Assembly (NCBI RefSeq): GCF_006065315.1
Contig: NZ_CP040749.1
Span: 2,370,501-2,434,500, forward strand
Source: Aureibaculum algae
Lineage (GTDB): Bacteria > Bacteroidota > Bacteroidia > Flavobacteriales > Flavobacteriaceae
Length of the DNA: 64,000 bases
Direction: 5' to 3'
The notes under the pieces are model-generated. The model searched no databases and was not told the DNA's origin. It saw only the letters and a program-made list of their open reading frames with translations. The translations under genes were made by a program, and so were the position numbers. This document shows positions 27,961-46,924 of the stretch, piece by piece (position 1 is the first letter of the stretch; each line of letters begins with the position of its first letter).

Positions 27961-28031
27961 ATTAGAGGTTAGCTGATAAATCTTAAGAGTATTTTTTTTC
28001 TCATAATTTGAAAATTGATTTATAAAACCAA

Positions 28032-31982: not shown

Positions 31983-32055
31983 GGCGAGGTAGCTCAGTTG
32001 GTTAGAGCGTCGGATTCATAACCCGGAGGTCGGGGATCGTGCCCCCCTCTCGCTA
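31983..32055 (+). tRNA. tRNA-Met (anticodon CAT)
   Basis: Cloverleaf: acceptor stem GGCGAGG / TCTCGCT with G-T pairs at both ends, D-stem GCTC/GAGC, anticodon loop TTCATAA with CAT at 32017-32019, and discriminator A at 32055 with no encoded CCA. The first pair is G-T, not the unpaired position of a typical bacterial initiator, so an elongator or a tRNA-Ile2 (lysidine-modified) is possible. The T-arm is odd: loop ATCGTGC instead of TTCRANY, so T54 and A58 appear swapped to A and T. The pairs 31-39 (A-C) and 49-65 (C-C) are mismatched. A terminator follows. Confidence 0.85.
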
Positions 32056-32476: not shown

Positions 32477-32520
32477 ATGACTATGGTCATTTTAAAGATT
32501 CATCTTAATCAATAGCTTTG
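32477..32520 (+). promoter_or_regulatory. CRP/FNR-type box A with -7 element (ftsH operon)
   Basis: Perfect palindrome ATGAC-TATG-GTCAT at 32477-32490, within AAATGAC..GTCATTT. The -7 element TAGCTTTG (8 of 8) begins at 32513, exactly 36 bp after the first base of the box. This puts the dyad near -41 from the expected start, the class II activation position of CRP/FNR proteins. It faces the small gene at 32544, the SpoIIAA-like gene and ftsH. Confidence 0.75.
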
Positions 32521-32543
32521 AATTATTAATAGAAAAATGATCT

Positions 32544-32744
32544 ATGCAATTATTAGGATTAATAATTATAAAAACCATGTTTAGAAATTATTCAAAACGC
32601 TATAATGCTCTAATCAAAACTATAAAAGTATTGGGATTACGAATTCCTAAAACTCTTGAAAGTTTTAACGAATTGCATACCGCGAGTATAGCATTAGATC
32701 CGGAGCATCATCCTAAGAAATTTAATACATCATGGGGAAGCTAA
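32544..32744 (+). CDS. Small basic protein, hypothetical
   Basis: A 66-codon frame that is the first frame of useful length behind the box A promoter. It encodes a basic peptide with a hydrophobic start (MQLLGLIII), KRYNALIKTIKVLGLRI and an acidic/His end (ALDPEHHPKKF). No family was recognised. An in-frame ATG 33 bp further on (32577, MFRNYSKR) would give 55 residues and may be the real start. Position between a strong promoter and the SpoIIAA-like gene supports expression; nothing else supports the protein, so a leader role is also possible. Confidence 0.4.
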   Translation: MQLLGLIIIKTMFRNYSKRYNALIKTIKVLGLRIPKTLESFNELHTASIALDPEHHPKKFNTSWGS

Positions 32745-32837
32745 TTTAGTGAGTAGAACTTCTTTGATGTATCGTTATAAAATCCCTGAAGTCTTAGTTT
32801 AATTTACACTAGTAGTGAAAAGTCAAAAATCAAAAAA

Positions 32838-33569
32838 ATGGAAACAATAAAAGGAACACAGTTAAATTTAGAAACCACCGTAAGTACCATAATTGAAGAA
32901 AGTATCAATCAAAAGGTTATAGACAGACTTTATACTGAAATGAAAGGTGTTATTGATAGCAATGGAGAGGTGAATTTAATTATACAAGCCAATGATATCA
33001 AAAGTATAAAAAATTTAAAATCATTTTTTTCTGATATAAAAGATAAATGGTTTGTACTTAAGCATCTTAGAAAATTTGCCATTGTCACCGACAAAGATTG
33101 GATTGAAAACCTTACAGAAATAGTAGGTGTCTTAACTCCAAAAGTTGAATTAAAAGAATTTGATATGGTCGATATGGATGAGGCAATTGATTGGGTAAAT
33201 TCCCCAACTATAAATGAAAAACACGGCATGGCAATCTGGCCTAAAGAAAATTTTTTACACCTAATAGTTTATGATAAACTCACAATGATAGATTATAAAA
33301 TCTTAAATAGAACCATGAGAGATTATGAAAAAGAGGTTTCTTTACTTATTCAGTTTTTAGATTTTGAAGGGATAACACTAAGGGCATTTTTAGAAGATCT
33401 TAAAATGGGTTTTAGCCATTATAGAAAATTTAAGAAGATAGCTATAGTACCTAATAAAAATATAGAATCCTTAATTAAAATTACAAATCTGGTAACTCCT
33501 GGAATTCAGTTTAAATCATTCGATTACCACGAAATGGATATAGCTGCAAAATGGTTGAATGAAATCTAA
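32838..33569 (+). CDS. Tandem SpoIIAA-like (STAS-like) protein
   Basis: A 243-residue cytosolic protein with two SpoIIAA-like domains (about 1-120 and 125-243). Each repeats the pattern of an alpha/beta STAS-like fold: LIIQANDIKSIKNLKSFFSD ... FAIVTDKDWIENLTEIVGVLTP ... FDMVDMDEAIDWVN in the first, and LLIQFLDFEGITLRAFLEDL ... IAIVPNKNIESLIKITNLVTP ... FDYHEMDIAAKWLN in the second. Single-domain relatives are common in Proteobacteria and Bacteroidota and are thought to bind small hydrophobic molecules, but a role is not proven. It stands 5 bp before ftsH, so they share transcription from box A. Confidence 0.85.
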   Translation: METIKGTQLNLETTVSTIIEESINQKVIDRLYTEMKGVIDSNGEVNLIIQANDIKSIKNLKSFFSDIKDKWFVLKHLRKFAIVTDKDWIENLTEIVGVLTPKVELKEFDMVDMDEAIDWVNSPTINEKHGMAIWPKENFLHLIVYDKLTMIDYKILNRTMRDYEKEVSLLIQFLDFEGITLRAFLEDLKMGFSHYRKFKKIAIVPNKNIESLIKITNLVTPGIQFKSFDYHEMDIAAKWLNEI

Positions 33570-33574
33570 ATAAA

Positions 33575-35497
33575 ATGACGAAAGTAAAAAAAGATAACAA
33601 AAATAAATTACCAAAGGCATACAACCCTAATTGGTTGTATTTGCTGTTTTTTGCTTTTATCGTTTTGGTTTTTTACATAAATCCTGTCGTTAAGACAAAA
33701 GAAATTAGTTGGTTGGAGTTTGAACAAGATATGCTGAGCCAGAACGATGTGGAAAAAATTGTTGTGGTTAATAAAGAAACTGCTGAAATCTATATAAAGA
33801 AGGAAAGGCTTTTGCTTAAGAAATATGAAGGGGTAGCTAAAGACACCATCCTTAGTGCTACCAGTCCGCAATACTATCTAAAACTAGGCTCCATAGAAGG
33901 TTTTGAAAATAAATTAGAAAAAGCTCAAGATAATTTTGCTCCACAAGAAAAAGTCGAAATAATCTATGAAAACCGCACCAATTGGATTGAAACATTTTCA
34001 TGGATTTTACCGTTCCTACTTATTCTATTTTTTTGGATTATAATTCTCCGAAGAATGAAACCCGGTAGCTTGGGTAGTTCAATGTTTAATTTTGGTAAAT
34101 CAACGGCTAAAATTGCAAATATAGACACCAAAAGTAAAGTGACTTTTAATGATGTAGCTGGTTTAAAAGAAGCAAAAATTGAAATCATGGAGATTTTAGA
34201 TTTTTTAAAGAATCCAAAAGAATATACAAGGTTGGGAGCTAAAATACCAACAGGTGTTTTATTGGTTGGACCACCAGGTACAGGTAAAACACTATTGGCA
34301 AGGGCAGTAGCGGGAGAAGCACAAGTACCTTTCTTTTCATTATCAGGTTCAGAATTTGTGGAAATGTTCGTTGGTGTGGGAGCATCTCGAGTAAGAGACC
34401 TTTTTAAACAAGCCAAAGAAAAAGCCCCAAGCATTATTTTTATTGATGAAATTGATGCTGTAGGCCGCTCTAGAGATAAAGCAAATAACTTCCAATCTAA
34501 TGATGAAAGAGAAAACACCTTAAATCAATTGTTGGCAGAATTAGACGGTTTTGGTACCAATACAGGTGTTATTGTACTTGCCGCCACCAACAGAGCTGAT
34601 ATTTTAGATAAAGCCTTATTAAGGGCAGGTAGGTTTGATCGTCATATTTATTTAGAATTACCCACAAGAGAAGAACGTGTAGAAATTTTTCAGGTACACC
34701 TAAAACCATTAAAACTTGAAAAAAGTGTAGATGTGAATTTATTGGCTTCCTTAACGCCGGGATTTTCTGGAGCAGATATAGCTAATATTTGTAATGAGGC
34801 AGCATTGATAGCTGCACGTAAAAAAAAGGAATCTGTCGGACAAGATGATTTTAACCAAGCTCGTGATCGTATTGTTGGTGGTTTAGAAAGAAAAAGTAAA
34901 ATTATATCACCCAAGGAAAAAAATATTGTGGCCCATCATGAAGCAGGACATGCGGTTGCTAGTTGGTATTTGAAAAATGTTGATTCTCTCGTAAAGGTAT
35001 CTATCATACCTAGGGGAAAATCTTTAGGAGCTGCTTGGTATTTGCCAGAAGAACGACAAATTATTACTAAATCTCAATTTCTAGATCAGATTTGTGCAGC
35101 TCTAGGTGGCAGGGCAGCTGAAGATATTATATTTAATGAAATATCATCTGGTGCCTTAGACGATTTGGAGAAAGTAACCAAACAAGCATATAATATGGTC
35201 GCTTATTTTGGTTTGGATGAGGAAGTTGGTCCTATTAGTTTTTATGATTCTACTGGAGAATATGGAAGGTTATTAAGTAAACCTTATAGCGAAAGTATGG
35301 GTAAGCTCATTGATACCGAGGTGTTAAATTTGATAACTACACAATACCAACGAGCCAAAAATATCTTAACTAAGCATAAAGATGAATTGGAAGAATTGGC
35401 ACAGCTATTATTGAAAAATGAAGTAGCGAACAAAGAAGATTTAGAGCAGATTTTAGGAAAAAGAAAAGCAACAGAATTGTTACAATCAGAAGATTGA
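33575..35497 (+). CDS. ftsH: FtsH-family ATP-dependent zinc metalloprotease (stress-island copy)
   Basis: Membrane-bound AAA+ protease of 640 residues that degrades misfolded membrane and short-lived proteins. Two membrane helices (about 17-35, [13 protein letters not shown], and 133-155, [15 protein letters not shown]) flank the periplasmic domain. The AAA module has Walker A GPPGTGKT (about 230), Walker [12 protein letters not shown], and the second region of homology with [19 protein letters not shown]. The protease active site HEAGH is at about 454-458. Flavobacteria usually carry another, essential FtsH elsewhere, so this is probably an accessory copy; that is inference. Box A upstream and the SpoIIAA-like gene 5 bp before it place it in the stress regulon. 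Confidence 0.93.
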
Positions 35498-35729
35498 AAA
35501 ATAGTTATGAATTTGGAAGAAAGGTGCAATTACAACAAGGAAGTAATGTTAAAAATCTTTTCACCAAACAAAATTTAGTTTGTTGTGAAATATAAAAATA
35601 GATAATAGGAATTAACGATAAATTAAAAATTGTAACAGAAGTTTTATAGAACCTAGATATTCATTGTGAATATTAATAATAGGTCAACGAAAACGCCTTT
35701 TGAACAGACGAAATGGAAGTTATATTTCA

Positions 35730-36179
35730 TCAAGTCTTTTCAAATCGTCCCGTTTTTTCGGTCAATTTAATTCTATAAACAACACCCTGCATGGCATCTA
35801 TGTATTTTGGATATGTATCTTTCATTGGATGACTAATTGTTGTTTCGCCAGTCATTAATGGCATAACAACATCCATTAATTTAAGCATTCCTTCTTCGCG
35901 TTCTTTTGGAGTTTTTAATTCTTCAAATTTGCCCCAAGCAATTACGCTTCGCCAATTGCTCATATTTTCTATAACATCTACCTCAAAACATACCAATGGA
36001 TTTTTTCGCATCATATCAATCTTCATGCCTTCGTTGGTATGCCCATAAATATATTTTCCATCGTAAGCATATGTAACTGGTACTACGTAAGTAATGTTAT
36101 CTGTATGGCAACCTATCCTACCAATAATACTACTGTACAATAGATGCTCAACCTGTTTTTTGTTCAAGGTACCTAACAT
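35730..36179 (-). CDS. Pyridoxamine 5'-phosphate oxidase-like flavin-binding protein
   Basis: A 149-residue split-barrel protein of the PNPOx-like superfamily. It has the N-terminal helix MLGTLNKKQVEHLLYSSIIG, strands RIGCHTDNITYVVPVTYAYD, the GHTNEGMKIDMMRKNPLVCFEV segment near the flavin phosphate site, and NWRSVIAWGKFEEL. Relatives bind FMN or F420 and include NimA-like nitroimidazole reductases. Its start lies 115 bp from the LOG-family gene on the other strand, with CRP/FNR-type box B between the two. PNPOx-like proteins are also found in low-oxygen regulons of other phyla. Confidence 0.88.
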   Translation of the reverse strand: MLGTLNKKQVEHLLYSSIIGRIGCHTDNITYVVPVTYAYDGKYIYGHTNEGMKIDMMRKNPLVCFEVDVIENMSNWRSVIAWGKFEELKTPKEREEGMLKLMDVVMPLMTGETTISHPMKDTYPKYIDAMQGVVYRIKLTEKTGRFEKT

Positions 36180-36203
36180 AATAGTTTACATTTTTTGTTG
36201 TAA

Positions 36204-36277
36204 CAAAGTAAAATTATTATTACGAAGAGTGAAATGATCTTTATCAGTTTAAAACACTAGGTTTCACTATATATTTG
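36204..36277. promoter_or_regulatory. CRP/FNR-type box B, divergent promoter
   Basis: ATGAT-CTTT-ATCAG at 36234-36247. To the right, the -7 element TATATTTG (8 of 8) begins at 36270, exactly 36 bp from the box start, facing the LOG-family gene at 36295. To the left, read on the minus strand, TTACTTTG (7 of 8) begins at 36211, again exactly 36 bp from its end of the palindrome, facing the PNPOx-like gene. One site can thus drive both genes. Confidence 0.75.
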
Positions 36278-36294
36278 AAAAGCAATTCCACACT

Positions 36295-37023
36295 ATGAAG
36301 GAAAATCGACGTGAATCAATATTTCTTGGAGGAAAAAGAAGCCGCTTAAAGGAATTTACAAGTGTACTTTCCATATTATTTGAGTTTATTTATGGATTTA
36401 GGAAATTACATTTTGTAGGTCCATGCATCACTGTTTTTAGCTCTGCAAAATTTGGAGAAGACAATATCTATTATAAGCAAGCAAGGGAGTTTTCGAAATT
36501 AATGGCGAATAAGAATTTTACTATTATGACAGGTGGAGGGCCAGGTATTATGGAAGCAGCAAATAGAGGAGCCAAAGATGTTTCTGGCATGTCTATTGGC
36601 TGTAACATAGAATTACCAAAAGAGCAGCATCCCAATCCATATCTTGATTTTAACATTACTCTAGAGCATTTTTATGTTAGAAAAGTACTACTACTAAAAT
36701 ATTCATATGCATTTGCTGTATTTCCTGGTGGTTTTGGCACCATGGATGAGTTTTTTGAAACTTTAACGCTTTTACAAACCAACAAAATATCTAATTTTCC
36801 TGTTGTGTTATTTGGAAAAAAATATTGGTCAAATTTATTAGAACAAACTGAAATTATGGTACGTCATGGAACTATATCTAAGGAGGATTTACAGTTATTT
36901 TTGGTCACAGATTCTGTAACTGAAGGGATAGATTATATCTATAAAAAATTAGAGAAAAGGCATGGTGCATCTATAGAGGTGAAAGCACCTAGAACTAGAT
37001 GGTGGTTTGGTGAAAGGCTATAG
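36295..37023 (+). CDS. LOG-family (TIGR00730-type) Rossmann-fold protein
   Basis: A 242-residue protein with the two LOG signatures: GGGPGIMEAANRGA and PGGFGTMDEFFETLTLLQT, which bind nucleotide in lysine-decarboxylase-like proteins. Characterised LOG proteins hydrolyse the N-glycosidic bond of nucleoside 5'-monophosphates such as cytokinin ribotides or AMP; the bacterial substrate here is not known. The C-terminus ends TRWWFGERL. At 242 residues it is the longer bacterial form. It is driven by box B and the -7 element 18 bp before its ATG, leaving a leader of only about 8-14 bases. Confidence 0.88.
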   Translation: MKENRRESIFLGGKRSRLKEFTSVLSILFEFIYGFRKLHFVGPCITVFSSAKFGEDNIYYKQAREFSKLMANKNFTIMTGGGPGIMEAANRGAKDVSGMSIGCNIELPKEQHPNPYLDFNITLEHFYVRKVLLLKYSYAFAVFPGGFGTMDEFFETLTLLQTNKISNFPVVLFGKKYWSNLLEQTEIMVRHGTISKEDLQLFLVTDSVTEGIDYIYKKLEKRHGASIEVKAPRTRWWFGERL

Positions 37024-37211
37024 TAATTTCTTTAAACCAAAAAGGTATCAATATCCCTTTGCCATTACAAATAATCTACTTCAAATTTTATGGCTTATAT
37101 ATGCTATTGTTTTTGTTGCGTAAATTGAGATTAAATATGACTTTGAGAATTATAACATATAAAATATATCTTATGTCAGATAGTGAACCTATACCAAGGT
37201 GGTCTAGAAAG

Positions 37212-37359
37212 TAAGAGCGATCTCCGTAGTTTCGATGGAGACTTATAATAGATTATCACATCTCTTCAGTTAACATTAATAGCGGTGCACCTTGTGTGTT
37301 TTCTAAATTTTCATTACAACTGATAAGAATCATCTTTAAAACTGATCTAGGTCATTGTA
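37212..37359 (+). repeat. Duplicated 148-bp regulatory block, copy R1 (upstream of ytxH-like gene)
   Basis: Aligns without gaps to 39300-39447 at a constant offset of 2088 bp; I count about 21 differences in 148 positions (about 86% identical). Longest identical stretches are ATGGAGACTTATAATAG and the run from TGATAAGAATCATC through AAACTGATC. Its right end is CRP/FNR-type box C. Rest of the 37024-37428 gap shows nothing else. Confidence 0.85.
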
Positions 37360-37385
37360 ACGTACTTCTAACATTAGTAAATTTA
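37342..37385 (+). promoter_or_regulatory. CRP/FNR-type box C with -7 element (ytxH-like gene)
   Basis: CTGAT-CTAG-GTCAT at 37342-37355, with -7 element TAAATTTA (7 of 8) beginning at 37378, 36 bp from the box start. It faces the YtxH gene, whose ATG is at 37429. Confidence 0.7.
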
Positions 37386-37428
37386 TGGTTATAAAAACAT
37401 AATTATTAACTTTTTAAAACAAATAACC

Positions 37429-37767
37429 ATGGCAAAGGCAAACCACACAGGTAATGTATTAGTAGCTCTGGCAGCAGGTGCAGCACTAGGAGCAGGAATG
37501 GGGATTTTATTTGCCCCTGATAAAGGTAAAAATACTAGAGGTAAAATCAAACACAAATTGGAGGATACAGGTCATGATATTTCAGAACGTATGCGTCATG
37601 CCAAAGATGAATTGACTAAAACAGCAGAAGTAAAAAAGGCTGAGTTTGATAAAAAATTAGATGATACACTATCTAATATGAGTTATAAAGCGGAAGATAT
37701 TATTTCATCTTTAGAAAAAAAGTTGGAAGATTTGAAAACGAAAAATGCACAGTTCCAAAAAAATTAA
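37429..37767 (+). CDS. YtxH-domain protein
   Basis: A 112-residue protein with an N-terminal glycine-rich hydrophobic helix (about 8-28, NVLVALAAGAALGAGMGILFAP, with the diagnostic LFAPDKG) followed by a long charged amphipathic coiled coil. YtxH proteins are general-stress proteins in Gram-positive and Bacteroidota cells, thought to associate with the membrane; no activity is known. Box C 74 bp upstream and the R1 block make it the best example of a single-gene target in the island. Confidence 0.85.
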   Translation: MAKANHTGNVLVALAAGAALGAGMGILFAPDKGKNTRGKIKHKLEDTGHDISERMRHAKDELTKTAEVKKAEFDKKLDDTLSNMSYKAEDIISSLEKKLEDLKTKNAQFQKN

Positions 37768-37899
37768 ATTAGAAGGTTTTTTAAATTATTAAAGAAGACC
37801 TAGGGGAGATTCTTGATAATTGACAATTAAAAATTTCAGAAAAATAGTTAGTTAGTTGAGTTAAGATGATTGAAGAGTCGTCATATCGCTTATTGAGTT

Positions 37900-37947
37900 A
37901 GTGAGGGTTTTGGGTTATGTTATTCCTGAATAACCCTCACTTTTTTT
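37900..37947 (+). terminator. Rho-independent terminator downstream of the ytxH-like gene
   Basis: Arms AGTGAGGGTT (37900-37909) and AACCCTCACT (37932-37941), perfect 10 bp, with an inner GGGTTAT / ATAACCC that can form a competing hairpin, then TTTTTTT. It lies 133 bp after the YtxH stop. Confidence 0.85.
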
Positions 37948-38004
37948 ATTTAAAGGAACCTCACTTAATTAAAAAAAATACTACATGAGGTTAGAATACT
38001 TATT

Positions 38005-38165
38005 TCACGAGTAAAATATCAATCATCGGAAATAAAGTTGACCAACTGCCCATTTTCATTAAAGTATAAAATGGCAGAAATGCTCCTACCCATGTGCGTA
38101 AAAAATCGCTCTTGCAGAATGCTCGTCAATAATTTTACACTTTATACGATAATCGATTAAGGGTG
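38005..38165 (-). pseudogene. Remnant of a DUF6544-like gene, frameshifted and with stops
   Basis: On the minus strand two adjacent frames encode CKIIDEHSARAIFY and then, after a frame change and near a TAG, SAILYFNENGQLVNFISDD followed directly by a TGA. This pair of segments matches what I know of DUF6544 proteins (a helix-grip fold with ..FHFNEKGQLVNFVSDDRY). The reading frame is broken at least twice and no start is present. It lies in the 672-bp gap between the YtxH and the phosphatidyltransferase genes; the rest of that gap (38166-38439) shows nothing clear. Confidence 0.4.
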
Positions 38166-38439
38166 ATGGGGCGAAGTGACCTGGTTGTCAAAAAATGTAA
38201 CCGTTTCTCTAACAAATAGTTTATCATTCTTTAAATGCACCATGGAAAAAGAGGAAGTAATTTAATACGAATTTTTTAAAGAAATCGTATTCATAAGTGT
38301 GCAATCTATTTATTTCGTTTTTTGGCGTTCGAAAAACCCATAAAATGTATAAGTCCGTGTATAATAATGGGTAGGGTTAAGACTATTTTTATCTAATTGG
38401 AGTTTAGTTAATTGCTTTAAAATGTATTGTTTAGATCAT

Positions 38440-39063
38440 TTATTTAAATACTTTTTTTTGGTTTGTATAGTTCTGTTTTTTACTTTTTGAAATTCGCTTA
38501 TCCTTTATGGCCCAATAAACCCCTTTAATGTCAGAAACCCAGTAGTCATAGATGTAAATAAGTGCTACTTCTTCAATTGTTTCTAGAAATCCAATTACTA
38601 TCATCACATAGAACATTGAGTAAATTGGACCTAAAAATAACGCCCATAGAATAAATACACCTTGTACAATTGCCGATAATTTAGCTAGATACGTATGAAA
38701 AGCAGTTGCTTTTCCATATTTGCTATAGGCAATAAGCAGTTGAATAAGATAAGGTGTAAAAGCAATTAAAATCAAAATATAATTTTCTTTGATAAAATCA
38801 TATTCAAATGCAAGCAATCCCAATAGGCCCATTATAAATGTCAATTGGTCACCGAGAGAATCTAATTGCGATCCTCTGGCACTTGTGATTTTTAGTTTTC
38901 GTGCCAAAAAGCCGTCAATCATATCGGTACTATAACTAACCAATAAAGCAAACGCAAATATTTGGCGTTCACCCATTAATAATAACAATAAAAGTATAGG
39001 TATGGCAAACACTCTGTAAAAAGAAAACCAATCGGCTATATTAAAATTTTTGAAGGTGAGCAT
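38440..39063 (-). CDS. CDP-alcohol phosphatidyltransferase family protein
   Basis: A 207-residue membrane enzyme of phospholipid synthesis. The catalytic signature D-x2-D-G-x2-A-R-x8-G-x3-D-x3-D is present as DMIDGFLARKLKITSARG followed by SQLDSLGD. About five to six hydrophobic helices follow (ILLLLLMGERQIFAFALLVS, LTFIMGLLGLLAFEY and others), and the end is basic (ISKSKKQNYTNQKKVFK). Family members make phosphatidylglycerophosphate, phosphatidylserine or other head groups; which alcohol is used here cannot be told. It is the only gene on the minus strand in this stretch of the island and no box of the CRP/FNR type was found before it. Confidence 0.88.
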   Translation of the reverse strand: MLTFKNFNIADWFSFYRVFAIPILLLLLLMGERQIFAFALLVSYSTDMIDGFLARKLKITSARGSQLDSLGDQLTFIMGLLGLLAFEYDFIKENYILILIAFTPYLIQLLIAYSKYGKATAFHTYLAKLSAIVQGVFILWALFLGPIYSMFYVMIVIGFLETIEEVALIYIYDYWVSDIKGVYWAIKDKRISKSKKQNYTNQKKVFK

Positions 39064-39299
39064 ACTATAAAATCATTGTTTAGAATGAAAGATAAAAATA
39101 GTACTTATTAATATTTTTAAAAATGACTTAAGTCATTTTTAAAAATTGAGGATTGGCTTTTTTTGATATAAACATCTAAGCCATTAAATACTTACTCTTA
39201 TGAAAAATATATCAATAAATGGGATTAAATATTTAAATGGTAATTTCTTTAAAATATTAAATTTGCTTTAATGACCTTAGACTAACCATGTTTAAATAG

Positions 39300-39447
39300 T
39301 TAGAGCCATCTCAGTAGTTTCAATGGAGACTTATAATAGAATATCACATCTTTTCAGTTAACATTAGTAGTCGTATATCTCGAGTATTTTTTACGTTTTC
39401 ATTACTACTGATAAGAATCATCTTTAAAACTGATCATGGTCATTGTA
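39300..39447 (+). repeat. Duplicated 148-bp regulatory block, copy R2
   Basis: Gap-free copy of 37212-37359, including a CRP/FNR-type box at its right end (box D). Unlike R1 it is not followed by a protein gene; the next one starts more than 900 bp further on. Confidence 0.85.
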
Positions 39448-39473
39448 TACTCAATATTAGGTGTCTACATTTG
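39430..39473 (+). promoter_or_regulatory. CRP/FNR-type box D with -7 element, no gene downstream
   Basis: CTGAT-CATG-GTCAT at 39430-39443 and a perfect -7 element TACATTTG at 39466-39473, 36 bp from the box start. The -7 element is better than that of the sister copy before ytxH, so the promoter does not look decayed. What it transcribes is the stretch to the hairpin at 39918. Confidence 0.7.
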
Positions 39474-39479
39474 TCCTAT

Positions 39480-39943
39480 TAATCGATAAGATATGTTCTT
39501 TGAATCATTTGTTTATAAAATTACTCAAGTAAATAGATTTAACTGTAGAATTACGGTTTAAGTTATTGATTTGTAAATAAATACTGCAAACAAAATATAC
39601 AATGTATTTTGACTATCTTAAAGTCGAAAAAAACAATATTAGCATGGCTATGCATGTGTTTTTAAAGCTATAGATAAACAAAATAATAGGTAAAAATGTA
39701 CAGTTATTTATTTACAATGAGCTGGTTTAAATATTTTAGAATAAAGCGAAAATTAGTTGTAAATGTGCAATTTTTTTAACCAATTTAGAAAGTTTGAACC
39801 AGTTCATATCATAAATGGGTATTTAATATTAGTTTAGTGATTTAGGTTTTAATATGAATTTTTTAGATAAGATTATGTGATAAACCAATTTAGCGATAAA
39901 CTAAAATAAATACTTAGGAACAGGAGGTTTCGGCTTCCTGTTC
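39480..39943 (+). ncRNA. Candidate noncoding transcript from box D to first hairpin
   Basis: Predicted from about 39480 (start inferred from the -7 element) to the hairpin ending 39943, roughly 460 nt. No reading frame longer than about 30 codons with plausible composition is seen; the best is a 27-codon frame at 39696-39779 (MYSYLFTMSWFKYFR..). It may be a regulatory RNA, a small-peptide mRNA, or a promoter left behind after gene loss. Existence is inferred from promoter and terminator only. Confidence 0.35.
39918..39943 (+). terminator. Terminator-like hairpin 1 of three (ACAGGAGG type)
   Basis: Arms GAACAGGAGG / CTTCCTGTTC, ten pairs with one G-T, loop TTTCGG. The T-run is poor (TATTT), so it may act as an RNA end rather than a full terminator. 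Confidence 0.65.
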
Positions 39944-40067
39944 TATTTAAAATCATTTGCATGAAAAAGAAAGTTTAAGGATTTTTTTAATCCATTATAA
40001 TTTGTGTATTGTTTAAAAATCAATATAAAAGTTTAAAGATGTTTTAAAAACGGCCTTAAATCCAGTG

Positions 40068-40099
40068 GAACAGGAAGTTTCGACTTCCTGTTCTTTTTT
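40068..40099 (+). terminator. Terminator-like hairpin 2 of three (ACAGGAAG type)
   Basis: Arms GAACAGGAAG (40068-40077) / CTTCCTGTTC (40084-40093), perfect, loop TTTCGA, followed by six T. Nearly identical to the hairpin 150 bp upstream. No gene lies between the two. Confidence 0.85.
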
Positions 40100-40279
40100 C
40101 CATCTTGTTTAATCAGGTAATTGCTATGAGAATTCTAAATATTCCTTTAAAACACATCATTTAAAGGCTATTGATAGCGTTCAGTAAAATTGGTTTTTAC
40201 ATTGTTGTGGTTTGTATAGGCCATACAAATGGTTATATGCCTAAGCCTTCATGTTAACCAAGAACAAATTCTATCAGTG

Positions 40280-40314
40280 AAAACAGGAAGATATGAAAAT
40301 GTTTTCCTGTTTTT
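40280..40314 (+). terminator. Terminator-like hairpin 3 of three
   Basis: Arms AAAACAGGAA (40280-40289) / TTCCTGTTTT (40304-40313) with a 14-base loop and T-rich tail. Again ACAGGAA in the stem. It ends 56 bp before the DUF302 start, so it closes whatever precedes, or acts in the leader of that gene. Confidence 0.75.
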
Positions 40315-40369
40315 ATTTTATAAACAGATGTGAAATAATTTAATTTAAGCTATAAATAAAATAAATATT

Positions 40370-40759
40370 ATGGATTATTATTTTTCTAAAACATTAAACA
40401 ATATTACTTTTTCTAACGCGGTAGAAAAAATAAGCCAAGAACTCCAAAAAGAAGGATTTGGTGTGCTTACTGAAATAGATATTACATCAACTTTTAAGAA
40501 AAAGTTAGATGTCGATTTTTATAATTATAAAATTTTAGGTGCTTGTCATCCTACTTTTGCATATAAAGCTCTAATGGCTGAAAATAAAATTGGTACTATG
40601 CTTCCTTGTAATGTTATTGTTCAAGAACAGAAACATGGTATAATTGAAGTTTCAGCTGTTGATCCAGTTGCATCCATGCAAGCGGTTATGAATAAATCTT
40701 TAGCCCCAATTGCTATAGAAATTAGAGATAAGTTAAAGAAAGTTATTGATAATTTATAA
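40370..40759 (+). CDS. DUF302 family protein
   Basis: A 129-residue protein that matches the DUF302 fold throughout: the opening FSKTLNNITFSNAVEKISQELQKEGFGVLTEIDI, the KILGACHPTFAYKAL segment with the conserved Cys-His, LPCNVIVQEQ and the end DPVASM and LAPIAIEIRDKLKKV. DUF302 proteins occur in metal- and oxygen-stress gene sets in many bacteria; the activity is unknown, though the conserved Cys residues (CHP and LPC) suggest binding of metal or heme. The gene at 40769 follows after 9 bp. Confidence 0.9.
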   Translation: MDYYFSKTLNNITFSNAVEKISQELQKEGFGVLTEIDITSTFKKKLDVDFYNYKILGACHPTFAYKALMAENKIGTMLPCNVIVQEQKHGIIEVSAVDPVASMQAVMNKSLAPIAIEIRDKLKKVIDNL

Positions 40760-40768
40760 TAAATTATT

Positions 40769-41188
40769 ATGATAAAGCAAATAAAACACAAAACCTTTAG
40801 TCGCGATAAAAGTATTGATGAACTGCATTATAGCACAGAAAAATGGTCAGCAGAACTCGATTTTTCGGCGTTTGAATTGTCTTTTTTAAGACAATTAATA
40901 AAATCATATCCGTATAAAAATACTATTCCTAATTTATTTGAAAATATTCAATTATTTATGAAGCAGCTTGATAAGATTGAGGGCGAACTACCACTACTAA
41001 TTAAAGAAATTAGAAATCATAACAATCAATTGGAGGGAAAGCTAGAATGTAACGATGTTAGTTGTGACGATTTTTACCTCGACGAATATAACCAGTTGTC
41101 CGAAAATATTTTTGACTATTTACAAGATTATAAAAACTTAAAAATTGAAATTTATAGTTTTATGCGTGGCATTATTCCTAATCCTTAA
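40769..41188 (+). CDS. Helical protein of unknown family, paralogue of 46487
   Basis: A 139-residue, all-helical, charged protein. The N-terminal pattern K-x-FSRDKSIDELHYSTEKWSAELDF is shared with the protein at 46487 (YGRQKSVEELHSDCKFWLSEIDF), followed in both by a FLRQL or FLEHL helix, and LIKEIRNHNNQL against LIQDHNNIL. I do not recognise a named family. It is 9 bp behind the DUF302 gene, and its operon ends in the terminator at 41325. With its sister it frames the island's core, suggesting a stress-related protein of this lineage. Confidence 0.75.
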   Translation: MIKQIKHKTFSRDKSIDELHYSTEKWSAELDFSAFELSFLRQLIKSYPYKNTIPNLFENIQLFMKQLDKIEGELPLLIKEIRNHNNQLEGKLECNDVSCDDFYLDEYNQLSENIFDYLQDYKNLKIEIYSFMRGIIPNP

Positions 41189-41324
41189 TTCAAAATGAAT
41201 AGTTTTCATATACTTGAATTAAAAGATGAAAATGACAAAATCAACTTTGATTTTAAATGATTTTGAAATACAACTGTAAAGATTAGCTAACTTGTATCAG
41301 ATTCCAACTTTTGAAATTATAAAG

Positions 41325-41350
41325 AAAAGGGTTAGAAGCACACCCTTTTT
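41325..41350 (+). terminator. Rho-independent terminator after the DUF302 operon
   Basis: Arms AAAAGGGT (41325-41332) / ACCCTTTT (41342-41349), perfect 8 bp with a nine-base loop and a run of five T (41346-41350). Confidence 0.8.
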
Positions 41351-41453
41351 ATATCAGTTTTATCAAGTATATGGTATGAGTTTCTTACCCAAATAGTATG
41401 GTTCAGATGTTGAACTCGCAAATGATTATAAAACCTGAATAAATGAATGATCG

Positions 41454-43166
41454 ATGTCAGTTTTAACAACAAATGCAAAGGAAATACTACGTGACCGGTA
41501 TCTTTTAAAGGATAACGACGGAAAGATTGTTGAAACGCCACACCAATTATTTAAGCGGGTTGCTAATTTTGTGGCATCTATTGAAAAAGACAATAAAACC
41601 TATTGGGCGAATAATTTTTATCAACTTTTAAAAAATCTAGATTTTTTACCGAATTCGCCAACTTTGATGAATGCCGGATTACCGAAAGGACAATTAAGTG
41701 CTTGTTTTGTATTACCTATCCATGATAGTTTAAACAGTATTTTTACAACATTAAAAAACGCAGCATTAATTCACCAAAGTGGTGGAGGTACAGGATTTAA
41801 TTTTTCGAACCTGAGACCAAAAGATGATTATATAGCTTCCTCGGGTGGATGCTCTTCTGGCCCTATCGCATTTATGAAAATTTATGATGCCGCAACAGAA
41901 AATGTAAAACAAGGAGGTAAACGTCGTGGGGCAAACATGGGCATACTTAATATTGACCATCCTGATATTGAAAGTTTTATCATATCAAAATCTAATGAAA
42001 AAGAACTTCAAAATTTTAATATTTCTGTAGGAGTAAGTGATCGTTTTATGGATGCAGTAAGAGATAATAATAACTGGAAACTTATAAACCCAAAAACCAA
42101 AAAAGTTGAAAAAGAGCTTAAAGCAACTAAATTATGGCAACTTATCGTTAAAGAAGCATGGAAAACCGGAGATCCAGGCATCGTTTTTTTAGATACTATT
42201 AATAAGCATAATCCAACACCTTATTTGGGTAAAATTGTAAGTACAAACCCTTGTGGAGAATTGCCATTACTAGCTTATGAAAGTTGTAATTTAGGTTCTG
42301 TTAATTTATCAAATATGATTACAGAAAAAAAGATTGACTGGAATAAATTGAATGATATCATTACTACAGCAATCAGGTTTTTAGACAATATTATTGATGT
42401 AAATTATTATTTATTACCGGAAATAAAATCCATAACAAAGAAAAATAGAAAAATTGGGCTAGGGGTAATGGGCTGGGCAGAAATGCTTATTAAATTAGAA
42501 ATTCCTTACGCCTCATTAAAAGCAGTTGACTTAGCAGAAAAATTAATGAAATTTATTCAGGAAAAAAGTTATGAGACATCAGTACAATTGGCAAAAGAAA
42601 AAGGATTATCTCCACTATTTATAAACAGTGCATATTTTAATAAATCTCCGCTTAGAAATGCAACATGTAATAGTATTGCTCCTACAGGAACTATTTCTGT
42701 AATTGCGAACACCACCTATTCAATAGAACCTCTATTTGCCTTGGCTTATAAGCGTACTGGTATTTTAGGAGGTAAAACGCAAATTGAAGTAAATAGCTTA
42801 TTTAAGGAAAAAATGAAGAAATCAGGCTTATGGTATAAAGCGTTAAAACAGCACATTTTTAAAAACGGTAGTATTAAAGATTTCAAAAACGTATCTACGG
42901 ATATTAAAAAAATATTTAAAACCAGTTTAGAAATACCATTTAAATACCATTTATTACATCAAAAAGCTTTTCAAAAATATACAGATAATGCAGTATCAAA
43001 AACCATAAATCTACCCAAAAATACTACTATAAAAGATATAACAGAAATTTATTGGACAGCTTGGGAATACGGACTAAAAGGCATTACTGTATACAGATAT
43101 GGTAGTAGGAACGAACAAATACTTCAAAAGTGCAATTTTGATAATTTAAAAATTGATTGCCAGTAA
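41454..43166 (+). CDS. Coenzyme-B12-dependent (class II) ribonucleotide reductase
   Basis: A 570-residue adenosylcobalamin-dependent reductase that makes deoxynucleotides without oxygen. Signatures are FLPNSPTLMNAG, QLSACFVLP (first active-site Cys), GGGTGFNFSNLRPK, the NPCGELPLLAYESCNLGSVN stretch with the thiyl-radical Cys and second redox Cys, and LRNATCNSIAPTGTISVIA. It is a short form: the C-terminal extension of longer NrdJ proteins is missing, though two Cys residues (KCNF and DCQ) stand near the end. Class II enzymes use coenzyme B12, work with or without oxygen, and aerobic bacteria often keep one for low-oxygen conditions. The start at 41454 agrees with family pattern. No CRP/FNR box at the right spacing was found upstream. 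Confidence 0.9.
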   Translation: MSVLTTNAKEILRDRYLLKDNDGKIVETPHQLFKRVANFVASIEKDNKTYWANNFYQLLKNLDFLPNSPTLMNAGLPKGQLSACFVLPIHDSLNSIFTTLKNAALIHQSGGGTGFNFSNLRPKDDYIASSGGCSSGPIAFMKIYDAATENVKQGGKRRGANMGILNIDHPDIESFIISKSNEKELQNFNISVGVSDRFMDAVRDNNNWKLINPKTKKVEKELKATKLWQLIVKEAWKTGDPGIVFLDTINKHNPTPYLGKIVSTNPCGELPLLAYESCNLGSVNLSNMITEKKIDWNKLNDIITTAIRFLDNIIDVNYYLLPEIKSITKKNRKIGLGVMGWAEMLIKLEIPYASLKAVDLAEKLMKFIQEKSYETSVQLAKEKGLSPLFINSAYFNKSPLRNATCNSIAPTGTISVIANTTYSIEPLFALAYKRTGILGGKTQIEVNSLFKEKMKKSGLWYKALKQHIFKNGSIKDFKNVSTDIKKIFKTSLEIPFKYHLLHQKAFQKYTDNAVSKTINLPKNTTIKDITEIYWTAWEYGLKGITVYRYGSRNEQILQKCNFDNLKIDCQ

Positions 43167-43172
43167 TAATTT

Positions 43173-43820
43173 TTAACAATTTTGAAGATAATTATCACAA
43201 GCTTTTTTTAGTAAATCCATAACTATAATATCATCAACAGGCTTGAAATCTTGATAAAACTGACCTACTGCACGAAAATTTTGTGGAATTTCTAAACAAA
43301 TAACTGTATCTACCAATGCCTGATTCTTAATTTTATCTATGGCAGATTGCGGTGCAACTGGTAAGCCAACAATAATCTTTAAAGGTTCTTGTTGAGCTAT
43401 CAATGCTATGCTAGATATTAATGTATTTCCAGTAGCAACACCATCATCAACCAAAATTACTATTTTATTTTTTAACTCCAATGGAGTCATATTGCCATGA
43501 TATCTTTTATGTAATGCTTTTAAAACATCCCTAATATGTTCTATTTCTTTATTAATATATTGCTGTGATACATTTTCAGCTGCCTCGGTCAATATCTCGT
43601 TGTCTAAGGTAACTGCCCCAATGGCATATTCTTTATTGGTCGGATGTCCTATTTTTTTTGAAAGCACTACTTCTAATGGCAAATTAAGTTTTTGTGCTAT
43701 TTCATAAGCAACTGGTACACCCCCTTTTGGGATGGTTACAATTACTACGTTGATATTATTTTTAAATTCTGATAATTCTTCAGCAAGTAATTTACCTGCC
43801 TCTTTTCTGTTTGCAAACAT
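43173..43820 (-). CDS. Phosphoribosyltransferase-family protein
   Basis: A 215-residue protein with the PRPP-binding motif VILVDDGVATGNTLISSI. The N-terminus (MFANRKEAGKLLAEELSEF) and KKIGHPTNKEYAIGAV are as in stress-linked phosphoribosyltransferases that are often fused or adjacent to an alpha/beta hydrolase, as here with the gene 19 bp upstream. The mycobacterial DosR-controlled Rv2030c contains a related domain. The nucleobase or other substrate is unknown. It is the last gene of the minus-strand operon that starts with box E. Confidence 0.85.
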   Translation of the reverse strand: MFANRKEAGKLLAEELSEFKNNINVVIVTIPKGGVPVAYEIAQKLNLPLEVVLSKKIGHPTNKEYAIGAVTLDNEILTEAAENVSQQYINKEIEHIRDVLKALHKRYHGNMTPLELKNKIVILVDDGVATGNTLISSIALIAQQEPLKIIVGLPVAPQSAIDKIKNQALVDTVICLEIPQNFRAVGQFYQDFKPVDDIIVMDLLKKACDNYLQNC

Positions 43821-43839
43821 TTTTATTGAGCTTATGTTT

Positions 43840-44484
43840 CTATTTCATAAATTTATCAAACCAATCATTGGTATGTTGAGCTACAATTTCCAATTTACCA
43901 GGCTCTTCGAATAAATGTGATGCTCCTTCAATAATATGCAGTTCACATATAGCATTCATCTCAGATTGTGCCTTTTTGTTCAAATCAATTACAACTCCAT
44001 CTTTACCTCCAACAAGCAATAATGTAGGTGATTTTACTCTATTTAAATCTTCCATGGCCAAATCAGGGCGACCACCTCTGGAGACTACTCCTTTAATTTT
44101 TTCACCTAATTCTGCAGCAGCTCTTAATGCCGATGCGGCACCAGTACTTGCACCAAAATATCCTAATAAAAAATGTTTTGTATGCTCATTTTTTTCAACC
44201 CAATTTGTTACTTTAACTAACCTTTCAGTGAGTAATTGAATATTAAACCTATTTTGGTAAACCAAATATTCCTTTGGTGACAGTAAATCGAAAAGCAAAC
44301 TTGAATAGCCATTTTCTAACAATAAATCAGCTACATAATTATTTCTGGAACTCAACCTGGAACTACCGCTACCGTGCGAGAAAACAATTAGTCCTTTATC
44401 TGTTTTCGCCAAACGCAAATTACCTTTTAATGTAAGATCACTAAGATTTATAGAAATTTCTTTGTATTTCTTTGCTTTCTCCAT
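43840..44484 (-). CDS. Alpha/beta hydrolase (dienelactone hydrolase-like)
   Basis: A 214-residue hydrolase of the short dienelactone-hydrolase-like type. The opening strand LIVFSHGSGSSR contains the oxyanion loop; the nucleophile elbow appears as GYFGASTGAASAL (Ser in GASTG); an Asp in VGGKDGVV and His in EGASHLFEEPG complete the triad. The family usually sits beside a phosphoribosyltransferase, as it does here. No substrate is known. It starts 4 bp after the end of the DUF2267 frame. Confidence 0.87.
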   Translation of the reverse strand: MEKAKKYKEISINLSDLTLKGNLRLAKTDKGLIVFSHGSGSSRLSSRNNYVADLLLENGYSSLLFDLLSPKEYLVYQNRFNIQLLTERLVKVTNWVEKNEHTKHFLLGYFGASTGAASALRAAAELGEKIKGVVSRGGRPDLAMEDLNRVKSPTLLLVGGKDGVVIDLNKKAQSEMNAICELHIIEGASHLFEEPGKLEIVAQHTNDWFDKFMK

Positions 44485-44487
44485 TTT

Positions 44488-44934
44488 TTAAAACATAATA
44501 TTATGGTATATCAATGATTTTAAATCTTTCGGGAGCTCGGTTCTAATATCTTCCAACTCACCTAATGAAATGTATTTACGTAATTCAATAAAAGTATTGA
44601 TAATGTACTGCTCAGCTATTTCGTCAGATTCAAAATCGTATATTGATGTTTTACCGTCAAATTCTCTTATTACATCAATAAACTCAGTTAGGTTTTTTAT
44701 TTTTTATTTTTTTCTAGAAGACCATTTATTAACATAAACAGCCTTTAAAAACATTGGAAATTGGGCTATCAATTGTAAAGATTCCTCCCACGAAATCACT
44801 TCTCGTAATCCGTGTAAAATCGATGATAAAATACGTCCACCTTTTTCAGTATCATTGCCTAATCCCAATTTTTTAGTGTATTCTTTTAAAAAACCATTGG
44901 CTTCTACGGCAAATTGATTAAAATTTAGTGCCAT
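44488..44934 (-). pseudogene. DUF2267 gene with one in-frame stop codon (TAA)
   Basis: Translation from 44934 gives a 76-residue N-terminal half (MALNFNQFAVEANGFLKEY, LQLIAQFPMFLKAVYVNKW, SSRKK) ending at a TAA at 44704-44706. In the same frame, without any shift, 71 more codons follow: KIKNLTEFIDVIREFDGK, EQYIINTFIELRKYISLGE, LEDIRTELPKDLKSL, ending with a real TAA at 44488-44490. Together they form the full-length DUF2267 protein of about 148 residues, whose family shows ordinary residues at the interrupted place (a basic or Gln codon such as AAA or CAA would need one change to make TAA). A true nonsense mutation is the simplest reading; readthrough or a sequencing error are alternatives. 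The first half is 12 bp behind the WG-repeat gene. Confidence 0.8.
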
Positions 44935-44946
44935 AATTTATTTAAT

Positions 44947-45552
44947 TTAAAATTCATGAATATCCCATTTACCATCTGTATTTTTCGTAGCAACCATTCT
45001 AGGTGCAATAAATTTAGACTCAAAACAAGGTAAATTTTTGTCTTTAAGTTGAGAAAGGTTACACTTTCGAGGATTATAAAGATATTTTACTATTTTACCA
45101 GAGGTGTCAATTATATATTCTTCTAGAATGTGACTAACTACATTAACACCTAAAAAAGGGTTTTTGCCTACTACATATTTTTCATAATTAACTATAATTG
45201 CATAACCATCTATAAAATTAGATGTTTTTACAAATTCAGGAGCAATCACTTCTTTTCCAGTTTTATCTATAAACCCGTAGAATTCAACGCCATCTACTAT
45301 TTTTTTAATCATACATCTTTCTTCTTTAAAAAGAGGATATTCTTCATTATTATCACCAATACTAGAGACAATATCATCTCTATAATCAATAATTTTTTCT
45401 CCTTTTTCATTAATAAAAGCCCATTGATTGTCTTTTTTAATGGCTGCCAATCCTTCGTGGAAAGGTGCTATTTCGTCAACTCCTTCTATAATTTGTGAAA
45501 ACCCTGTTGCACAAAAAATAAAACTCAATACAAATACAAATAATTTTCTCAT
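44947..45552 (-). CDS. Secreted WG-repeat protein
   Basis: A 201-residue protein with signal peptide MRKLFVFVLSFIFCATGFSQ. WG-type repeats, beta hairpin units with an aromatic-Gly core, are visible: LAAIKKDNQWAFINEKGEKII, FYGFIDKTGKEVIAPEF and YIIDTSGKIVKYL. WG proteins are thought to bind peptidoglycan or act as periplasmic structural proteins; the role is not settled. It is the first gene of the minus-strand operon behind box E, about 24 bp after the expected start of transcription. Confidence 0.82.
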   Translation of the reverse strand: MRKLFVFVLSFIFCATGFSQIIEGVDEIAPFHEGLAAIKKDNQWAFINEKGEKIIDYRDDIVSSIGDNNEEYPLFKEERCMIKKIVDGVEFYGFIDKTGKEVIAPEFVKTSNFIDGYAIIVNYEKYVVGKNPFLGVNVVSHILEEYIIDTSGKIVKYLYNPRKCNLSQLKDKNLPCFESKFIAPRMVATKNTDGKWDIHEF

Positions 45553-45580
45553 GATTTTAGATTTTTATGGTTGTTTATAG

Positions 45581-45624
45581 CAAAGTTATTTTTTAATCAT
45601 TGATCATAAAATGACCTTCATCAG
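45581..45624 (-). promoter_or_regulatory. CRP/FNR-type box E with -7 element (WG to phosphoribosyltransferase operon)
   Basis: Read on the minus strand: CTGAT-GAAG-GTCAT beginning at 45624, and a perfect -7 element TAACTTTG beginning at 45588, exactly 36 bp later. It faces the WG-repeat, DUF2267, hydrolase and phosphoribosyltransferase genes, which run with gaps of 4 to 19 bp. Confidence 0.75.
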
Positions 45625-45775
45625 TTTAAACGAGCGACTGACTAATATTTCAATGAATATTAAATAGAACTTTTTAATTAAAGCACTTAAACTTGTTTAG
45701 GATAGCAATCAATTTTTATAAGATGTTAAAGGCAAAGATTGGCCTATTAATAAATAGAAATAAATTGGAATGAAA

Positions 45776-45819
45776 CTGATCTACATCATTTCATTTTAAT
45801 TAGGTTGGATTTACTTTTA
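45776..45819 (+). promoter_or_regulatory. CRP/FNR-type box F with -7 element (hsp20)
   Basis: CTGAT-CTAC-ATCAT at 45776-45789, -7 element TACTTTTA (7 of 8) at 45812-45819, 36 bp from the box start. It faces the Hsp20 gene at 45887. Confidence 0.7.
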
Positions 45820-45886: not shown

Positions 45887-46327
45887 ATGGCACTTATTAA
45901 ATTTAACGAACGGTTTCCATTAAGTACTTCTGTATTTAATAATTTTTTGAATACTGACGATTTTTTTAATGATGATTTCTTTGCAAAAGACAGTTTAAGA
46001 CCTGCAATGAACGTTAAAGAAAATCAAAATGACTTCGAAGTTGAATTGGCAGCTCCTGGCTTTGCCAAAGAAGATTTTGAAGTAACTATCGATAATAACG
46101 GACTTCATATTTCCGCTGATAAAAAAGAAGAAAATGAGGAAAAAGAAGAAGGTTATTTACGTAAAGAATTTAGCTATAAATCTTTTAAAAGATCATTACG
46201 ACTACCAGAAAATGTAAACCTTGATAAAAAGGTTAAGGCCAATTACAAAAATGGAGTTTTAAAAATGAATTTATTAAAAAAGGAAGAAGCTAAAGTGTTA
46301 CCTAAAAAGGTAATTGAGGTGAGTTAA
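45887..46327 (+). CDS. Hsp20/alpha-crystallin family small heat shock protein
   Basis: A 146-residue ATP-independent holdase chaperone. Opening MALIKFNERFPLSTS, then the N-terminal variable part and the alpha-crystallin domain (about 42-146): RPAMNVKENQNDFEVELAAPGF, EVTIDNNGLHISADKK, FSYKSFKRSLRLPENV and the ANYKNGVLKMNLLKKEE strand with the typical C-terminal I-x-V like tail KKVIEVS. Box F 98 bp upstream. A weak terminator follows at about 46345. Confidence 0.93.
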   Translation: MALIKFNERFPLSTSVFNNFLNTDDFFNDDFFAKDSLRPAMNVKENQNDFEVELAAPGFAKEDFEVTIDNNGLHISADKKEENEEKEEGYLRKEFSYKSFKRSLRLPENVNLDKKVKANYKNGVLKMNLLKKEEAKVLPKKVIEVS

Positions 46328-46486: not shown

Positions 46487-46924
46487 ATGAAAGCTAGAAT
46501 AAAAAAGCAATGGTATGGCAGACAAAAAAGTGTTGAAGAGTTACACAGTGATTGTAAATTTTGGTTGTCTGAAATAGATTTTATAAAAGATGAAATTAAT
46601 TTTTTGGAACATTTGTTTGGTTTAAATTATATCGATTTTTTAGAAGCAGGTTTTGAAGAAAAAGTAGAAAAGTTGATAAAAAAAATAAAAGAGGAAAAAA
46701 ATGCAGTTAATAAGATGTATCCTTTGATACAAGACCATAATAATATTTTGGCTGATTTAATGGAATCGAAAAGTGCAGAAAATAATCCCACTTATTTAGA
46801 AAGTCATTTAAAATTAGAAAAATTGATGGACCTGTATTTCGAGAAATTTAAGTCCATAAAAAAAGAGATTTTTAAGGTTGTCGAAGAGGTAACTAAAAGG
46901 AAAGAAATGAAAAAATTGGTATAA
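46487..46924 (+). CDS. Helical protein of unknown family, paralogue of 40769
   Basis: A 145-residue helical, Lys/Glu-rich protein. Its start MKARIKKQWYGRQKSVEELHSDCKFWLSEIDF resembles the protein at 40769 (see there), with conserved spacing of the K/R-Q/D-K-S-x-(D/E)-E-L-H motif, a W about ten residues later, and an acidic-Phe pair. The rest is a coiled coil (EEKVEKLIKKIKEEKNAVNKMY). It lies 160 bp behind hsp20 on the same strand. No named family was recognised. Confidence 0.72.
   Translation: MKARIKKQWYGRQKSVEELHSDCKFWLSEIDFIKDEINFLEHLFGLNYIDFLEAGFEEKVEKLIKKIKEEKNAVNKMYPLIQDHNNILADLMESKSAENNPTYLESHLKLEKLMDLYFEKFKSIKKEIFKVVEEVTKRKEMKKLV

Follow-up and report, generated by a model that had tools for sequence, protein, structure and literature searches.

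The window analysed here is a 64,000-nucleotide stretch of the Aureibaculum algae genome (contig NZ_CP040749.1, positions 2,370,501 to 2,434,500), which contains an island of genes that are probably stress genes placed behind class II CRP/FNR-type sites. Features of the island are given in window coordinates, and features elsewhere in the genome in contig coordinates. Six palindromes (boxes A to F) had been described in a first, sequence-only reading at 32477, 36234, 37342, 39430, 45611–45624 (minus strand) and 45776, each followed at a distance of 36 bp, start to start, by a -7 element of the TAnnTTTG type, perfect (8/8) at four boxes and 7/8 at two; when re-read, all were exactly as written. 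Box A (ATGACTATGGTCAT, 32477–32490, plus) is followed by TAGCTTTG at 32513–32520 (8/8), with a predicted transcription start at about 32525. Box B (36234–36247) acts two ways: on the plus side the -7 element TATATTTG (8/8) predicts a start at about 36282, and on the minus side the reverse element claimed earlier was found as TTACTTTG (7/8; predicted start about 36199). Box C (CTGATCTAGGTCAT, 37342–37355, plus) has the element TAAATTTA (7/8), box D (CTGATCATGGTCAT, 39430–39443, plus) has TACATTTG (8/8), box E (CTGATGAAGGTCAT, 45611–45624, minus) has TAACTTTG (8/8; predicted start about 45576) and box F (CTGATCTACATCAT, 45776–45789, plus) has TACTTTTA (7/8; predicted start about 45824). An additional box, absent from the first reading, lies at 39123–39136 on the minus strand (ATGACTTAAGTCAT; -7 element TATTTTTA; predicted start about 39088). 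With box B counted both ways, eight oriented sites in the window carry at least 5/6 of the fixed TAnnTTTG letters at 36 bp. A second palindrome, CTGATAAGAATCAT, is found 22 bp upstream of box C (37320–37333) and of box D (39408–39421). The stretches upstream of these two boxes are nearly identical, and the offset of the second palindrome equals two helical turns, which looks like the duplication of a promoter segment.

The box A transcript would begin with a 66-amino-acid open reading frame (ORF; 32544–32744, plus), related to a CMD/AhpD-like protein but shorter. It has no Pfam match and is 51–59% identical to CMD-like proteins in four loci, where a box precedes each of the four; the CMD/AhpD-like protein is full length in the 2153–2187 kb cluster described below and in related genomes. 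The genes for a SpoIIAA-like protein (PF11964; 32838–33569, plus) and an FtsH-type AAA+ protease (33575–35497, plus) are probably on the same transcript. Box B lies between the genes of a pyridoxamine 5'-phosphate oxidase (PNPOx)-like protein (PF12900; 35730–36179, minus) and a LOG/lysine-decarboxylase-like protein (PF03641; 36295–37023, plus), box C precedes a YtxH-like protein gene (PF12732; 37429–37767, plus), and the additional box precedes a CDP-alcohol phosphotransferase gene (phosphatidyltransferase family, PF01066; 38440–39063, minus). The genes of a WG-repeat protein, a DUF2267 protein, an alpha/beta hydrolase and a phosphoribosyltransferase (PRTase; 43173–45552, minus) form a probable box E operon, and box F precedes the gene of an Hsp20 small heat-shock protein (45887–46327, plus). 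The predicted leaders, from predicted start to first listed start codon, measure 13–63 nt where an ORF follows the site (seven cases); the median given in the consulted part of the Flavobacterium psychrophilum promoter map is 24 (PMC9723704). No box stands before the gene for the large chain of a ribonucleotide reductase (RNR; barrel and alpha domains, 41454–43166, plus). Membership in the regulon, earlier assumed for the class II ribonucleotide reductase, was rejected: its homologues in two other loci have no box either, and position is the sole hint. A tRNA gene (31983–32055) stands just ahead of the island.

The same part of the F. psychrophilum map places TAnnTTTG at -12 to -5 (PMC9723704). 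With these coordinates the boxes start at -48 and their dyads are centred at -41.5, which sharpens the earlier placement near -41, the class II position, as far as predicted starts and sequence geometry allow. On these coordinates the -35/-33 region, which a class II activator overlaps, would be covered by the 3' half of the palindrome, and the base directly 3' of the palindrome is T in 21 of the 22 sites of the window and of the cluster that holds the candidate regulator gene.

Two checks proposed by the sequence-only reading, a scan of shuffled sequence and a scan of the whole genome, both came out in its favour. In 200 dinucleotide shuffles of the window, sites with at least 5/6 letters at 36 bp averaged 0.04 (maximum 1), compared with eight in the real sequence, perfect elements at that distance never occurred (mean 0.0, maximum 0, against four), and palindromes as such averaged 1.01 (maximum 5, against 11). 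Genome-wide, the pattern MTGAYN4RTCAK-N22-TAnnTTT has 41 matches, and the reversed pattern none. When the gap between the CTGA form and TAnnTTTG was freed from 8 to 38, 13 of 18 genome-wide matches had a gap of 22, the remaining five being scattered among the 30 other gaps. A family-alignment scan of a genome collection gave 80 loci, of which 21 were taken as loci of receiver-CRP proteins (REC-CRP; one cut at a contig edge), 13 other Bacteroidota loci served as controls and 46 were unused. The 21 loci, picked via the protein and not via the motif, contain 70 sites (at least 5/6) with the 36-bp spacing; the 56 other spacings average 2.7 (maximum 13), and the 13 controls contain none at 36 bp. 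Four of the 21 loci (L060, L062, L063, L077) have no 36-bp site; the geometry may be limited to Flavobacteriales, since three of these four bear Sphingobacteriales names (Mucilaginibacter, Arcticibacter, Sphingobacterium). In conclusion, these sequence comparisons indicate that the regulon is real and conserved and has a precise promoter code.

At least three further box clusters were found in the genome, at 2153–2187, 3198–3224 and 4088–4103 kb, and two of them hold a gene for a protein that joins receiver, cNMP-binding and HTH_Crp domains. The sequence-only reading had placed a single CRP/FNR-family regulator outside the window; family and location both stand, and the search for such genes sharpened the candidate to a receiver-CRP fusion that has a histidine kinase as its partner, not FNR. 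Its gene (2187495–2188562, minus) lies 182 kb outside the window, inside the first of these clusters. As in the CRP/FNR superfamily, a cNMP_binding fold (PF00027, 6.9e-22) is followed by HTH_Crp (PF13545, 1.5e-12), here in one protein with the receiver. The nearest database relative, from Aureibaculum, is 94% identical, and the orthologues of this protein are called type A below. The gene of a PAS histidine kinase (2188559–2190964, minus) overlaps that of the regulator by 4 nt. The receiver has the phospho-acceptor Asp, Thr and Lys of response regulators, residues D9, D52, T82 and K104 being invariant in 13 relatives of 63–77% identity. CRP contacts cAMP through E72, R82 and S83; the aligned residues of the regulator are Q, Y and I. 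An FNR-type cluster, which takes four cysteines, is not present because the 356-residue regulator has two cysteines only. The recognition helix retains equivalents of CRP E181 and R185. Given the invariant receiver residues and the lack of cAMP contacts as well as FNR cysteines, the regulator is probably switched by phosphorylation. A structure prediction of the receiver-CRP protein (mean pLDDT 61.6, pTM 0.41) was not used. In the literature searched, terms like REC-CRP or CRP output domain retrieved no paper, and other wording or papers beyond that literature are possible; in the consulted part of a CRP/FNR regulon prediction for Flavobacteriales (PMC8510549) a MalR motif is used and no receiver fusion was seen.

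A paralogue of the same architecture is encoded at 3209901–3210956, and its kinase gene (3208024–3209904) again overlaps by 4 nt. A histidine kinase gene lies directly 5' of the regulator gene in 29 of 29 loci examined (L059, L065, L068 and L073 of the 21 were left out of this kinase table). Among solved structures, the first PAS domain of both kinases of the window's genome (G000; its contig, C1) is nearest FixL and DosP. When the 29 kinases were aligned with FixL, 23 scored at least 25, a cut-off chosen after the scores were seen, and six scored lower; 21 of the 23 carry the heme histidine. The other two are the kinases of the window's genome, which have N and Q at the histidine position, compared with H in all 21 others that reach the cut-off; no third kinase of this genome matches a relative's kinase across the PAS part. 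The FixL-like first PAS domain of the relatives, with its heme histidine, suggests that oxygen or another heme ligand was the ancestral signal. In L060, L062, L063, L066 and L077, mostly Sphingobacteriales, the kinase PAS is very FixL-like (scores above 100), and few or no 36-bp sites lie within 10 kb.

The distribution of sites and regulators was compared in 199 Flavobacteriaceae genomes, one per genus. Class II sites are present in 163 of them, with four control matches overall, receiver-CRP proteins (E 1e-60) in 85 and FNR-like proteins (E 1e-45) in 117. The mean number of sites is 0.63 in genomes with neither regulator type (n = 46; 0.86 in 14 genomes of at least 2.5 Mb), 4.90 with FNR-like proteins only (n = 68), 5.94 with other receiver-CRP proteins only (n = 32), 9.61 with other receiver-CRP and FNR-like proteins (n = 41), 14.0 with type A in genomes where FNR-like proteins were not found (n = 4) and 16.5 with type A and FNR-like proteins (n = 8). 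The core of the palindrome also differs between sites: of the 22 sites in the window and the regulator cluster, 16 have G or C as both inner letters, compared with 2 of the 15 around the paralogue. By hand sums, GC-core sites number 110 in the 199 genomes, against seven control matches, with a mean of 4.0 in the 12 type A genomes (3.0 without the window's genome) and 0.33 in the 187 others. Type A genomes hold 48 GC-core sites; a hand tally puts 32 of them no more than 40 kb from the type A gene, or 22 of 33 if the window's genome is left out.

Homologues of the island genes were examined in 13 type A loci. Ten came from the survey, which has 11 type A genomes besides that of the window (the fragmented G037 was left out), and three from named records. 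With a distance of up to 320 bp allowed, a box precedes the homologue of YtxH in 8/8 cases, of Hsp20 in 6/6, of the WG-repeat protein in 3/3, and of the CMD-like, BON and dodecin proteins in 4/4 each; by our own arithmetic (148 boxes, 431,607 bases, two strands), chance alone would put about 0.05 boxes per gene within that distance. No homologue of the CDP-alcohol transferase was found in these 13 loci.

The product of box D is predicted to be a non-coding RNA (39478–40098, plus). No ORF is present from the box to 40370, and a decayed gene was looked for by six-frame reading, which showed none. The predicted transcript has GTTCTT about 18 nt after its start and terminator-like hairpins at 39917–39944 and 40067–40094, which would give RNAs of about 471 and 621 nt; a third hairpin (40278–40316) lies before the first ORF after this RNA, a DUF302 protein gene (40370–40759, plus), into which read-through from box D may or may not occur. 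The arrangement of box, non-coding stretch and terminator-like hairpins is repeated in a genome of the same genus, where the predicted RNA is shorter than in the window, at 257 nt. By DNA search, short matching stretches were also picked up behind receiver-CRP genes elsewhere. A covariance model restricted to the final 80 nt, built from eight loci and the two window hairpins, matched 51 of the 199 genomes at 1e-3. In 14 of the 22 genomes with a best E of 1e-5 or lower, a match lies 203–1743 nt downstream of a receiver-CRP gene, on the same strand. For the 13 genomes outside the model, seven have a match downstream of such a gene, and in nine a class II box puts the predicted start 172–219 nt before the model end; no class II box was found at the RNA in the other four (G051, G085, G087, G196). 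The motif GTTC[TC]T is found 10–18 nt past the predicted start in 15 of 20 box-bearing loci. Across 19 sequences the terminal hairpin keeps 96.5% of pairs; double changes number 17, where shuffles give 4.3, a pattern that any terminator might give. Rfam returned only a tRNA for window positions 28000–50000, thus no family for this RNA, and for four related loci a single sub-threshold match (L20_leader, E 0.037) that adjoins the RNA and does not cover it. A CsrA-like reading of the hairpin was considered and dropped without a test. Relatives with a conserved 5' GTTCTT and 3' hairpin occur in L177–L183, L185, L187, L193–L201 and L137, and several genomes (e.g. G125, G133, G175, G034 and G061) have tandem copies. 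Box D is thus predicted to precede a non-coding RNA family, an unexpected member of the regulon.

We consider it likely that the island is one block of a regulon run by the PAS kinase and the type A receiver-CRP protein as a two-component system; as to its identity, this protein is the best candidate for the regulator, on evidence that is good but indirect. The kinase would phosphorylate the receiver of the fused protein, whose active dimer would bind palindromes of the TGAY-S-NN-S-RTCA type centred at -41.5 and, at TAnnTTTG promoters, would activate rather than repress transcription by the housekeeping polymerase, in a class II manner. The targets in the island would be Hsp20, YtxH, FtsH with the SpoIIAA-like protein, the PNPOx-like and LOG proteins, the WG/DUF2267/hydrolase/PRTase group and the non-coding RNA. 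A larger block of targets, around the regulator gene, would include BON proteins, ferritin, dodecin, a DnaJ-like protein and others.

Several observations weigh against this assignment. First, the regulator gene is 182 kb away from the window, the 199 genomes are not phylogenetically independent, and the mean of 16.5 sites is not an effect of type A alone, as most type A genomes also bear a second receiver-CRP, the paralogue. Second, GC-core sites also occur in genomes that lack type A (seven in G007, four each in G069, G111, G126 and G146), two boxes of the window do not have a GC core (CTTT in box B, TTAA in the box at 39123), and the co-distribution comparison did not include three further HTH_Crp proteins of the genome (at 3090, 1491 and 170 kb). 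Third, in the 13 type A loci own boxes are partial for LOG (1/3), PNPOx (2/4), DUF302 (1/2), DUF2267 (1/3) and FtsH (1/3), and absent for SpoIIAA (0/2), PRTase (0/3), the hydrolase (0/3) and RNR (0/2); several of the box-less homologues would be inner genes of operons.

The paralogue, which has the architecture of type A and has nos, Usp and hemN-like genes (identified by eye) as its neighbours, might control the island alone or jointly with type A; we hold this to be doubtful. In its favour, box B and the box at 39123 have AT-type cores, and the box D RNA family is found mostly beside paralogue-type genes. However, the paralogue cluster and related loci favour AT cores, both inner letters being G or C in 2 of 15 sites around the paralogue and in 0 of 42 in the related loci, compared with 16 of 22 in the window and regulator cluster, and the island homologues adjoin the type A orthologue in 13 loci. 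A single-domain FNR-like protein (3267520–3268206) could also read the window boxes as part of an ordinary FNR regulon: its recognition helix is nearly identical to that of the receiver-CRP protein (TATESAIR and TATETAIR, respectively), its gene neighbours genes that resemble, by eye, a cbb3 oxidase locus, and the 4.9 sites averaged above belong to genomes with an FNR-like protein and no REC-CRP. This is nevertheless improbable, as GC-core sites average 0.10 in these 68 genomes, compared with 2.5 in the four type A genomes where an FNR-like protein was not found, and sites cluster at the receiver-CRP gene instead. That motif and spacing are the chance product of an A+T-rich genome has practically no likelihood, for although such palindromes do arise randomly, about one per window, the controls given above refute it at every level (41 against 0, 8 against 0.04, 70 against 2.7, 13 of 18 matches sharing a single gap out of 31).

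With type A as the preferred regulator of the island, a wider proposal has about even chances of being right, namely that many Flavobacteriaceae possess a short-circuited FixL-FixJ-FixK system, in which a heme-PAS kinase and one receiver-CRP/FNR protein would govern a DosR-like survival regulon through sites centred strictly at -41.5. This regulon would include an RNA of about 200 nt, not described before, whose gene usually follows that of the regulator. The core specificity would be split between two paralogues (GC and AT), and the kinases of the window's genome would have given up heme sensing, its RNA gene lying in the distant stress island.

The likeness to FixL-FixJ-FixK of rhizobia lies in a kinase of the heme-PAS type (in the relatives), a receiver and an FNR/FixK-type activator of low-oxygen genes. 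Here, however, receiver and CRP/FNR module are fused, and therefore one transcriptional step fewer is needed; in addition, both kinases of the window's genome lack the heme histidine. The island had also been compared with the mycobacterial DosR regulon, which is a fair analogy of gene content. DosR is of the receiver-LuxR/NarL type. The further claim that the regulators are unrelated does not hold as worded: both have a receiver domain and the output domains differ, that of the candidate being HTH_Crp and not of the NarL/LuxR type, with another DNA site. DosS/DosT-DosR and OsdKR of Streptomyces resemble the proposed system in the two-component control of universal stress proteins and a heat-shock protein, in response to hypoxia for DosR, according to the part of the source consulted (PMC5069765). 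The class II activators FNR, ANR and CRP share the TGA-N6-TCA core and the dyad at -41.5 that is predicted here, but the present regulator has a receiver domain and neither the FNR cysteine set nor a cAMP pocket, and would act at a Bacteroidota -7 promoter. The lxa locus of Burkholderia cenocepacia, which the gene content also recalls, is a low-oxygen locus with universal stress proteins, in another phylum, and the consulted part of its description gives no evidence of a receiver-CRP protein (PMC3759415).

In flavobacteria, which are abundant in sea and soil and whose gene regulation is poorly understood, these results would provide a testable global stress/low-oxygen circuit in which the DNA code is precise, regulator and kinase are named and an RNA takes part. 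If true, the rhizobial oxygen cascade would here be collapsed into two proteins, and the mycobacterial dormancy regulon would have a second, separately built counterpart. The split between GC and AT cores makes the specificity of the two paralogues directly testable.

Small proteins alike by eye (a WxxE..F start, coiled-coil-like) occur in three box clusters: two in the window (40769–41188 and 46487–46924), neither with a good Pfam match, and others at 2153586–2154056, 2182357–2182764 and 3212899–3213336 of the contig. In the regulator cluster, a phosphoglycerate-mutase-like gene is present as two separate ORFs (2165109–2165818). Finally, two pairs of cNMP-binding proteins (2781–2794 kb and 3820–3830 kb) score identically, which suggests a duplicated segment.

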